This document shows positions 15,539 through 19,720 of a stretch of 50,961 nucleotides of DNA, piece after piece. Source of the stretch: Tannerella sp. (GTDB lineage: Bacteria; Bacteroidota; Bacteroidia; Bacteroidales; Tannerellaceae). The notes under the pieces are model-generated. The model was not told the DNA's origin. It did not search any database and saw only the letters and a program-made list of their open reading frames with translations. Position 1 is the first letter of the stretch; every line of letters starts with the position of its first letter. Location of the stretch: positions 1 to 50,961 of the forward strand of contig JAITMM010000014.1 in NCBI GenBank assembly GCA_031277335.1, given 5' to 3'. The position numbers and the translations under genes were made by a program.

Positions 15539-16228
15539 ATGAACATTAAAAAATTAAAGTTACTATTACCGGCAACCGTGTTATCATTGTCATTCCTCGC
15601 AGGCAGTTGCAGCGACGATAACGCACCGGGCATTGAGACGAATAAAGACGGCACAATTTCCGTCATTGAAGGCAAAATTTTCAATGAACTTGATGAATCG
15701 GTGGAGATTAAGACTGTTGGAGGATGTTTATGGGACGACTGGGATAATATCTACGTCGTATCAATGGCTCCATTTGAAAATGGCGGTTTTCGGATGGAAC
15801 TTCCACCGGAAGTGACAGATGAAAGCTATTTGGAGCTACTTTACCCTGTTTTTGCAGAGATTCCGGAAATTAAGTTTTCAGACACTAAAGTAAAATATCG
15901 CGAGTTGGAAATTTTTGCCAATCGTGGTAGTGAGATTGAAATGGGCGCTTATGATGTTTATTTACAGACAGTCGACCCTGCACTGTCAAAAGTGCCGGAT
16001 AAAGGTGCTTATTGTATATTTACCTACGTCGACCGCGATGTCACCATAACCGGTAAAGTTACCTCTGAATCAGAACTTGACCCTCTCGCTGTCTCCGAAA
16101 TAGACCTTTCCCTAAAAAAAGGCTGGAACGCCGTTTACTCCGAGTTTGATTATACGTCAAAACCTGCGCGAACAAAATCCTCCACCAAAGCCCCAAGCGG
16201 CTTGAAATGGTGGGTAGATATAGATTAG
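15539..16228 (+). CDS. Lipoprotein of unknown function (paralog of next gene)
   Basis: LSFLAGSCSDD lipobox; shares DRDVTITGK...LSLKKGWN...GLKWW with next ORF. Confidence 0.75.
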   Translation: MNIKKLKLLLPATVLSLSFLAGSCSDDNAPGIETNKDGTISVIEGKIFNELDESVEIKTVGGCLWDDWDNIYVVSMAPFENGGFRMELPPEVTDESYLELLYPVFAEIPEIKFSDTKVKYRELEIFANRGSEIEMGAYDVYLQTVDPALSKVPDKGAYCIFTYVDRDVTITGKVTSESELDPLAVSEIDLSLKKGWNAVYSEFDYTSKPARTKSSTKAPSGLKWWVDID

Positions 16229-16254
16229 CTCTAACATTTTTAATTCAAATAATT

Positions 16255-16890
16255 ATGTGTATCAAAAATTTCAAATTATTATTTCCGGCAGTGTTACTGT
16301 CACTGTTGCTCTTAGCTGCCGGTTGCAGTAAGGATGACTTCTCGAATGGAATTAGCGTATCTGAAATAAACGTTAAAAATCCGGTAGGAGAATCATCAGA
16401 AAGTATTGATTTTGTAGAAGTTGAGTTTAACAACAAACAATTCATGACAGTTGATTTCATGGATAACGGTTTCACGGTCAATCTCCCGGAAACGGTTGAA
16501 GACTATTACCTGATGGATATAAAAGACGATTTTCCGAAAGGATTGAATATCAGCGATCCTCAAGCCAAGATTTGCTATCTGAGCATGGAGGGCGGCGACT
16601 ATGAGTCTGACTTAAAAGGCAATGAATTTCGAAGGCAGTACGAATACAGAAATATGGAATATAACGGCCCCGACGAAGCACCGGAAACAGAAGGTTTCTA
16701 TATTTATACAGACCGGGATGTTGCGATAACAGGCAAAACGGAAGGTGATTTTTTCACACCAATAAGTTGCAGTCTTTCATTAAAGAAAGGATGGAATCTT
16801 TATTTTTGGACAAGAGATCATACCGATGATTTCGGAAAGGAAACATATTCTCATAAAGAACCTAAGGGAATGCAATGGTGGGCGAGATAA
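16255..16890 (+). CDS. Lipoprotein of unknown function (paralog of previous gene)
   Basis: LLLLAAGCSKDD lipobox; DRDVAITGK...LSLKKGWN...GMQWW; start at 16255 preferred. Confidence 0.75.
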   Translation: MCIKNFKLLFPAVLLSLLLLAAGCSKDDFSNGISVSEINVKNPVGESSESIDFVEVEFNNKQFMTVDFMDNGFTVNLPETVEDYYLMDIKDDFPKGLNISDPQAKICYLSMEGGDYESDLKGNEFRRQYEYRNMEYNGPDEAPETEGFYIYTDRDVAITGKTEGDFFTPISCSLSLKKGWNLYFWTRDHTDDFGKETYSHKEPKGMQWWAR

Positions 16891-16925: not shown

Positions 16926-18896
16926 ATGAAACAAATAAAAAATTATCTGATTATCCTAGCAGCATTCGGATGCATGCTGCTGGCGGGATGCGAGAAAGAC
17001 GGTGACAAACAAACCGATTTCACGGACGAAGAAATCGAAGCACTGTATCAGGAGATTGAACCGCTGGCTGATGAAATTTTATTAAGTGATAAACCGGACT
17101 GGAATGAAATAGTAGAACAGTACAAGAATAGGAAAGAAATAAAAGAGATTGAGTCAAATGAGGATGGCTTAATGATTGAATTTATTAATGGTCAGATTAA
17201 TGGGTGGATACTTCCGCCACCTGTTGTGTCAGATGAAATTTTATCATCCATTGATTTAACACACCTATCAAATGCATTACAAAAACAAACCAGCATCAGA
17301 AATACTGCCCAAGATGAGAAAAAACCAAAAATTGCTTTTGTGAATTCTAATTGGTATATTGATAAATATTATCAAAAGTTTATTTTAGACATGGCAATCC
17401 CCGATTTTCAAAAAACTTGGGATGTAGAAGAAATTGGAGGTAAAAATGGTGCAAATCTTGACTTTTTTAAAAAAAGATTATCTGAATTCGATGTTGTTTT
17501 TTTACATGCTCATGGTGCTATTGCGTTAAACGGTAAATTTTGGATAGAAACAGGAGAAGAGGCAAATACCAATTTTTGGACAAATATAAAGGCAAATATT
17601 GGTATGGGTAAAATAGCTGCAATTAATCAAAAAGATTATATTGATAATAAAGAAGTTATAACAACACATGCTTTTATTTCTGGTGAAGTTATTTCTGATA
17701 ATTATTTGAACAATCCTTTCCCTAATTCTTTAATTTATTTAACATCTTGCCACGGTTTACAAAATCCCAATCAGTTTGCAAAACATTTTACTGATAATGG
17801 AGCAAAGGTGGTTGTAGGATGGAATGAAACGAATTGTATTGGTATTTTATCAGGTGCTAAGTTATTGGATGGTTTGATGCTTTCAGAAAATTTAAATTTA
17901 TCTGATGCTGTAGCCAATCTTCCAGAAAAAGATAGAATCAATGATCATCGTAATAACAGCGCTCGAAACCCACTTTGCAATCCACCTAACTCACATTATG
18001 CTGAACTTGTATTCTATCCCTCTTCCGCAGGCAACTACAAACTACCTTATGTAGACGATGGTCTTACTGATGAAATTCATAATATTATTCCCGACGAGAT
18101 TTTAGAAAAATTTAAAGGACTTGATATAGTCATAAACGGCGGTAATAATCCTCCCAATATTACAGGAAGTTATTTTATATCGCCCCTGATAATAACAAAA
18201 ACGAACTTCAACGGATCAACGTCATTAGGTCGTATGAATATGGATTTGACTTTCTCGGAGCAAAATAACACAAACCTCACTGTTAAAGTAGATTATACAA
18301 AAAGATATCTGGATTCAGGAACTTTTTTAGGAGGAGACGGTTTAGGTGCTTTTATTACAGGTGAGGGTAATAAATTTTCAGTATTTTTCGAAGCAAACGG
18401 AACGTCAAGAGGTGGTCCTTATAAAAGCGTAGAAATTATGTCTGGAGAAATTACTTCTGAAGGTATTAAGAATTGGCAACGCGCCTACATAATGACTCAA
18501 GAGAGTTCAGCTACAATCAAAGTAGGACAAGGACGCTTAAATATTGATAGTGACGGATTTTCGGAACGTACAACAGGAGGTACTCAACCTAACTGGCCGG
18601 ATAATGTAGTAGGAAGTATCGATTTTGATTTTGGAAATGTAACTGTAAACCAAAGCGCATCGGAAAATTTGAATATAAGTAACAGTGGTAATTCCATATT
18701 ATATTGGTCAACGGTTTGTCCGGATGGCTTTCGGGTAGATTCATGGTCGGGAGCAAGCGGTTCAATAGAACCTGGTAAACAAGCAAAAATAGAATTAATC
18801 TTCCGACCCACTGTTAGAAAATATTACTCCGGTACAGTAATCTTTTATACGTCAATTGGAAAATATTTGATTAATGTAAGTGGAACAGGCAAATAA
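16926..18896 (+). CDS. Lipoprotein with caspase/CHAT-like (clan CD) peptidase domain, uncharacterised middle domain and C-terminal choice-of-anchor/ASPM-like Ig domain
   Basis: LLAGCEKD lipobox; FDVVFLHAHGAI ... SLIYLTSCHGL ... GAKVVVGWNETN; C-terminus IDFDFGNVTVNQSASENLNISNSGNSILYWS...SGTVIFYTS. Confidence 0.78.
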   Translation: MKQIKNYLIILAAFGCMLLAGCEKDGDKQTDFTDEEIEALYQEIEPLADEILLSDKPDWNEIVEQYKNRKEIKEIESNEDGLMIEFINGQINGWILPPPVVSDEILSSIDLTHLSNALQKQTSIRNTAQDEKKPKIAFVNSNWYIDKYYQKFILDMAIPDFQKTWDVEEIGGKNGANLDFFKKRLSEFDVVFLHAHGAIALNGKFWIETGEEANTNFWTNIKANIGMGKIAAINQKDYIDNKEVITTHAFISGEVISDNYLNNPFPNSLIYLTSCHGLQNPNQFAKHFTDNGAKVVVGWNETNCIGILSGAKLLDGLMLSENLNLSDAVANLPEKDRINDHRNNSARNPLCNPPNSHYAELVFYPSSAGNYKLPYVDDGLTDEIHNIIPDEILEKFKGLDIVINGGNNPPNITGSYFISPLIITKTNFNGSTSLGRMNMDLTFSEQNNTNLTVKVDYTKRYLDSGTFLGGDGLGAFITGEGNKFSVFFEANGTSRGGPYKSVEIMSGEITSEGIKNWQRAYIMTQESSATIKVGQGRLNIDSDGFSERTTGGTQPNWPDNVVGSIDFDFGNVTVNQSASENLNISNSGNSILYWSTVCPDGFRVDSWSGASGSIEPGKQAKIELIFRPTVRKYYSGTVIFYTSIGKYLINVSGTGK

Positions 18897-19018: not shown

Positions 19019-19720
19019 ATGAAAAAGATTTTTTTCTGTTTTTTTACGGTAATGATGGCCGTATTGTGCATTGGACTTGTTTCGTGCAAGAAAGATGACC
19101 TCAAGGAAGTGGACGATCAAGGGCTGACCGAAGATATTCGTGACTTTATGCCCGAGGACATTATTCAAGAAGTTGAAAGGCTGGGACTGACAATTTACGG
19201 AGGTAATACGCCACCTGATATTACAGGTACTTATTTTACGTCTCCCAATATTCTTAAAGACTCAAATATTGACGATCCTTCGGATATCGGCTCTTTGCAG
19301 TTTAATGATGCAACGGTAATCTTTTCGGAACAGGACAATAAGAATCTGACGATACAGGTGTTTCAGGATCACCTGAGAGACGAGTCGGATGGCGGAAGCG
19401 GCGTAGGCGGTTATATCGTTGGTAAAGACAAGAATTTCACCGTATTTGTCAAACTTCTCGATGTGGATACTCACGGTCACGAAGCGTTGGTAGCCATGCT
19501 CTATTCCGGCACGATATCGGACGCCGGAATCATAAATCTTCATATTGCTACTATTATGATTGATGATGGAGGCGACCCTCACAATAATTTAATTAACATC
19601 GGCGGCAGCAGACTTATTTACGATCAGGACGGACTTTCGGAAAGAAAATCTTCTACAAAAAGTCTATTAAAGCAATCGGAGAACATGTTGCCCGGCATCC
19701 TTAGCATCCAAAAAAATTGA
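19019..19720 (+). CDS. Lipoprotein consisting mainly of the domain shared with the middle of the 16926 gene
   Basis: VLCIGLVSCKKDD lipobox; DQGLTEDI...GGNTPPDITGTYFTSP...FSEQDNKNLT...DGLSER matches the upstream protein. Confidence 0.78.
   Translation: MKKIFFCFFTVMMAVLCIGLVSCKKDDLKEVDDQGLTEDIRDFMPEDIIQEVERLGLTIYGGNTPPDITGTYFTSPNILKDSNIDDPSDIGSLQFNDATVIFSEQDNKNLTIQVFQDHLRDESDGGSGVGGYIVGKDKNFTVFVKLLDVDTHGHEALVAMLYSGTISDAGIINLHIATIMIDDGGDPHNNLINIGGSRLIYDQDGLSERKSSTKSLLKQSENMLPGILSIQKN

Follow-up and report, generated by a model that had tools for sequence, protein, structure and literature searches.

Anatomy of the predicted lipoprotein

The window (the whole stretch of DNA that we analyzed, 50,961 nucleotides) is an entire contig, G000:C109, of a Tannerella sp. 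genome that is assembled in 284 contigs. It encodes a 656-amino-acid protein whose features are listed in Table 1. A sequence-only reading of this DNA had described the product as a surface-anchored caspase- or CHAT-like peptidase and had pointed to a lipobox, an uncharacterized middle domain, and a C-terminal Ig-like domain. We found each of these parts. The lipobox, LAGC, ends at Cys22 and follows a signal peptide. The middle domain, with the motif GGNxPP, has no match in Pfam or the PDB. The C-terminal domain passes the Pfam cutoff as HYDIN_VesB_CFA65-like_Ig (PF22544), and choice-of-anchor D remains below its own cutoff. The two candidate active-site motifs also lie where they had been placed. 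The stretch with the His motif, FDVVFLHAHGAI, and the stretch with the Cys motif, SLIYLTSCHGL, are both in this open reading frame, and GAKVVVGWNET is located after the Cys275 motif. The codon at 17511-17513 is CAT (His196) and that at 17748-17750 is TGC (Cys275), with a spacing of 79 residues.

Table 1. Coordinates of the putative protease gene, its domains and residues, and associated genes. Positions are those of the window unless a locus is named.
Feature	Position	Strand	Description
Target open reading frame	16926-18896	+	656 aa; N terminus MKQIKNYLIILAAFGCMLLAGCEKDGDKQ
Signal peptide with lipobox LAGC	16926..16991	+	Predicted lipidated Cys22, codon 16989-16991; mature start CEKDGD
N-terminal module, aa 31-98	17016..17219	+	Alignment and predicted secondary structure: helices, then strands
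CHAT-like clan CD peptidase core, aa 132-375	17319..18050	+	Conservation, profile, and fold evidence
His196-Gly197, putative catalytic His and adjoining Gly	17511..17516	+	Invariant in 25/25; directly after a predicted strand
Cys275, putative nucleophile	17748..17750	+	Invariant in 25/25; two residues past a predicted strand
GGNxPP domain, aa 376-551	18051..18578	+	Also in free-standing lipoproteins and in an alpha/beta hydrolase fusion
ASH/HYDIN-type Ig-like domain, aa 567-642	18624..18851	+	PF22544, 26.7 bits (cutoff, 25.5)
Downstream lipoprotein, free-standing GGNxPP paralogue	19019..19720	+	39% identity
Small putative beta-barrel gene	L148 5960-6535		
Small putative beta-barrel gene	L151 5662-6234		
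Small putative beta-barrel gene	L153 804-1478		
Small putative beta-barrel gene	L082 4738-5256		

A lipobox is present in the window protein and in many of its relatives, and four relatives (L130, L132, L134, and L136) have a signal peptide without a lipobox. The lipoprotein export signal of Capnocytophaga is C-X-K-(D/E)2-X (PMC5080379). Signals of the SDDDD/SDDFE type are also known from surface lipoproteins of Bacteroidota. Residues +2 to +6 of the window protein are EKDGD: the K at +3 and the D at +4 agree with the Capnocytophaga signal, and +5 is a G. The mature start is thus one residue off the optimal Capnocytophaga signal, which it resembles without a full match. The mature start of the relative L058, C-D-K-D-D-E, fits this signal. 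The lipobox and the residues resembling an export signal suggest that the window protein is likely to be surface anchored.

Ahead of the core, every one of the 24 members whose N terminus aligns has a short alpha-beta module with the pattern V..V....l.I.f.nG. Some clan CD enzymes are kept inactive by their N-terminal region (PMC4357240). Because the module accompanies the core and N-terminal inhibition occurs in some clan CD enzymes, it is reasonable to guess that this module is a prodomain, and we regard that role as possible.

Conservation and fold of the core

We gathered homologues by whole-genome searches, beginning with the window protein and continuing with successively larger alignments. 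Profile searches of Bacteroidota genomes gave 24 further members, which share 14 to 30% identity with the window core. Homologues come from the same genus and family (L008, L010, L021, L023, L024, and L025), from the rest of the order (L056, L058-L062, and L064), and from farther out in the phylum (L127-L136 and L146), and the set as a whole covers several families of the order as well as other classes of the phylum. They are uncommon. At a loose cutoff, 11 of 125 genomes of the window's own family had a homologue, as did a few percent of genomes in wider samples once CHAT proteins that the profile also drew in were removed. A scan of genome contigs with the window core alone returned zero relatives, and a scan with a three-member alignment returned three, in Tannerella sp. 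metagenome assemblies. We found no relatives of the core in the viral contigs scanned and, by single-sequence search, no relative of the window protein in phage and plasmid records.

When seven core sequences were aligned, G, H, G, T, C, G, and I were invariant. With fourteen cores, invariance was left only at H196, G197, and C275. With 25 diverse cores, none of these three residues varied and every other column had at least one deviation, as one would expect of a catalytic dyad and its neighboring glycine. In the definition of clan CD, the dyad residues lie where strands 3 and 4 end and a Gly adjoins the His; the structural conservation of this Gly extends to every family of the clan (PMC4357240). 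Consistently with this definition, the predicted strands of the core end right before these residues: in models of both the window protein and the relative L082, a predicted strand leads directly into the His, and a strand ends about two residues ahead of the Cys. Full conservation of H, G, and C alone in 25 diverse homologues takes the motif match beyond chance. The invariance of exactly H-G and C makes it very probable that this is a real, exported cysteine protease.

The homologues L130, L132, L134, and L136 are closely related exported proteins of 505 to 519 aa from one other family of the phylum, and the residues around their Cys, SCHGADPGALPGMPTW, are the same in all four. The homologue L057 (1747-2616, in genome G664) has one in-frame TAG shortly past the catalytic-Cys motif; this may reflect a decayed gene, a sequence error, or recoding.

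Single-sequence searches with the core found no match in Pfam, NCBIfam, or the PDB, and a PDB sequence search with the profile found no clan CD entry. The Pfam CHAT model (PF12770; cutoff, 24 bits) had no match above its cutoff: the window protein had no match at all, and one of nine members matched with an E value of 0.32. We compared the family profile with four textbook CHAT domains, which were kept out of the query, using hhalign. The match had a probability of 96 to 97%, with E values of 2e-10 to 3e-9 that are those of single comparisons and not of a database search. In this alignment, the His and the Cys of the two sides fall into the same columns. When these two residues and the Gly were masked, the match was still 89% (E value, 2e-6). 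Reversed, methyltransferase, PurN, and hydrolase profiles, which served as controls, gave nothing, and with the two larger alignments the CHAT match surpassed the controls by several orders of magnitude.

Caspase C14 (PF00656) reached 77% and 43% in two alignments, with a receiver-domain control at 20 to 69% (45 to 69% over its first 55 columns). Because this control scores as well as C14, we did not count a caspase link by profile. Neither gingipain C25 (PF01364; hhalign, 1.0%) nor clostripain C11 (PF03415; hhalign, 0.1%) had a Pfam match. The window's own genome has no CHAT, C14, or C11 match, and its single C25 protein is a separate gene (G000:C242). Of the relatives that the sequence-only reading had named, caspase C14 and gingipain C25 are not the closest; of the three profiles named for comparison, PF12770 alone was positive, with the dyad aligned, PF00656 stayed at control level, and PF01364 was negative. 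From these profiles, the core is best described as a CHAT-related branch of clan CD that falls outside CHAT by Pfam's own cutoff, and by these tests it is not a caspase, a gingipain, or a clostripain.

The model of window residues 22-377, built from a shallow alignment of four rows, had a pLDDT of 44 and a pTM of 0.46. In a PDB fold search with this model, separase ranked second (probability, 0.91) and nothing fell below an E value of 0.001; with a pLDDT of 44, this search is weak. The model of the L082 core had a pLDDT of 58 and a pTM of 0.65. Its four best Foldseek matches in the PDB were the four chains of the SAVED-CHAT structure 8tl0, with E values of 9e-5 to 8e-4, a probability of 1.00, and modest TM scores (0.40 to 0.45 by query length). 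Lower-ranked matches were a mix of caspases and NagZ-type hydrolases. The NagZ-type matches span only about 77 columns, and we took them as generic alpha/beta similarity. Clan CD peptidases have a six-stranded caspase-hemoglobinase sheet, and the fold comparison that the sequence-only reading had proposed addressed this by proxy, with CHAT at the top for L082; the window's own model was too poor for it. The proposal of a clan CD, CHAT-like core held up, on the H-G/C invariance, the controlled CHAT profile match, the predicted strands, and the fold search of a relative.

Variable modules and neighboring genes

The modules downstream of the core differ among members. The window protein has the GGNxPP and Ig-like domains, L058 has GGNxPP, L008 has Laminin_G_3 and Big_2, L056 and L061 have Fib_succ_major, and L062 has choice-of-anchor L. 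L082 and L064 have DUF2135-like and PKD-like modules, respectively, each below the cutoff. The GGNxPP domain is also found as free lipoproteins, one of which is encoded by the next gene in the window (19019-19720). Its association with the core recurs in three other genomes (G860, G023, and G008). The two are fused in L058. They are apparently fused in G023, in a gene that seems split across two contig ends, and in G008 a GGNxPP gene lies two genes from the core on the same short contig. We also observed a lipoprotein (L003, 445-2046) that combines a GGNxPP domain with a DUF915/lipase-like alpha/beta hydrolase carrying a GHSMGG motif.

The 17 kb upstream of the target gene include kinase, FHA, and PP2C genes, and trypsin-like genes are also found upstream; the position of the enzyme beside kinase, phosphatase, and pseudoprotease genes had been called a strong lead. 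This lead was not supported: in nine related loci, some of them on short contigs, we saw no such genes beside the homologues. PADLOC models had no match to the window protein. With no conserved neighborhood in related loci and no PADLOC match, we rejected a kinase or defense partnership. The L082 and L084 loci have a common set of neighbors that is absent from the window.

Other genes at these loci are described here in their own right. The FHA protein at 1122-2924 has a trypsin-like C-terminal domain in which the Ser motif GNSGGP has become GNDGGP (Ser to Asp), and a His and an Asp look kept. It is probably a pseudoprotease, with kinases and a PP2C phosphatase as neighbors. Two overlapping genes (15539-16228 and 16207-16890) immediately before the putative protease gene encode paralogous lipoproteins (31% identity; E value, 7e-17) without a Pfam family. 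In several relatives, small genes of about 170 to 230 aa that look by eye like beta-barrel outer-membrane proteins lie beside the protease gene (Table 1).

Proposed function and relation to known peptidases

We propose that the target is probably an exported clan CD cysteine endopeptidase that is anchored by a lipid and has a CHAT-related catalytic domain. According to this model, the protein would be cleaved by signal peptidase II and held in the outer membrane by the lipid on Cys22, probably turned to the cell exterior. The N-terminal module may act as a prodomain. His196, helped by Gly197, and Cys275 would form a dyad at the ends of neighboring parallel strands and cleave peptide bonds; conservation, structure prediction, and the fold match support these two residues as the catalytic dyad. 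The GGNxPP and Ig-like domains may serve in cell-surface retention or in binding of a partner or substrate; relatives carry other surface modules at the same place. The most likely job would be limited cleavage of surface or neighboring-cell proteins and not intracellular death or defense. Several points count against our reading: the core lacks a sequence match in Pfam, NCBIfam, or the PDB, the window model is poor, the His-Cys spacing exceeds that of the CHAT proteins compared, some relatives have no lipobox, and the mature start deviates by one residue from the optimal signal.

We weighed three other explanations. The fold may be CHAT-like while its Cys-His dyad serves a transpeptidase or ligase, or the protein may mainly bind. 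Clan CD folds do include transpeptidases, such as the C25-type T9SS sortase PorU, and legumain-like ligases, and the relatives carry many accessory surface modules. However, the perfectly conserved dyad and Gly argue for catalysis, and we saw no second conserved active-site set; we consider this explanation unlikely. Less probable still is a cell-death or phage-defense protease that acts like cytosolic CHAT on a partner substrate encoded nearby, possibly under kinase/phosphatase control. The core is closest to CHAT, the kinase, FHA, and PP2C genes lie upstream, and those kinases match defense-kinase models, as such kinases commonly do. These points are set against an export signal, the lack of a PADLOC match, nine related loci (some short) without a conserved kinase or candidate substrate neighbor, and the absence of any relative among phage or plasmid records.

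The protein might also be a pseudoenzyme or a likeness by chance, with HG and SC arising coincidentally in an ordinary lipoprotein domain of the alpha/beta type. Short motifs by themselves are common, the single-sequence searches were empty, and the receiver-domain control reached 45 to 69% over its first 55 columns. Against this, exactly the dyad and Gly are invariant in 25/25 cores, the CHAT match is orders above the controls, and the fold search of L082 agrees. Conservation largely refutes such a chance likeness, which we give only a very slight probability.

CHAT proteases have mostly been described as effectors inside the cell, with ties to defense and signaling. C11 and C25 peptidases matter in gut and oral Bacteroidales, in toxin activation and surface processing. 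If our proposal of a surface endopeptidase is true, an exported, lipid-anchored CHAT-related branch extends across Bacteroidota, invisible to Pfam and NCBIfam, and would form a peptidase family beside C11 and C25. More tentatively, with somewhat less than even confidence, we suggest a hitherto unrecognized, phylum-wide family of surface CHAT-type proteases with a prodomain and swappable modules that might act in protein processing or in cell-cell contests. A limited literature search found no description of such a family, which is not proof of absence. The prediction for His196 and Cys275 concerns two residues and is simple and testable.

At the surface of Bacteroidales, C11 lipoproteins activate pore-forming toxins by cleaving them (PMC11169675), which gives a precedent for the role that we propose. 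Like fragipain, DpnA, and DpnB, the target would be a lipid-anchored clan CD protease on the Bacteroidales surface (PMC11169675), but neither it (0.1% by hhalign) nor its own genome matches C11. The C25 gingipains and PorU are likewise exported Bacteroidota proteins with an HG and C dyad, but their profile match to the target is 1.0%. The C14 caspases, metacaspases, and orthocaspases share the clan CD fold, and caspases are frequent among the lower-ranked fold matches of L082; in contrast, their profile link is at the level of the receiver-domain control, and the genome has no C14 match. CHAT (PF12770; TPR-CHAT and SAVED-CHAT) is the best profile and fold match of the target core, with the same order of strand-HG and strand-[S/A]C and the putative dyad aligned. 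The target differs in its longer His-Cys segment (79 residues versus 47 in L065, one of the CHAT proteins compared), in lying below Pfam detection, in having its own N-terminal module, and in lacking a TPR or SAVED domain. Finally, CHAT proteins are cytosolic sensor fusions, whereas the target is a predicted exported lipoprotein.
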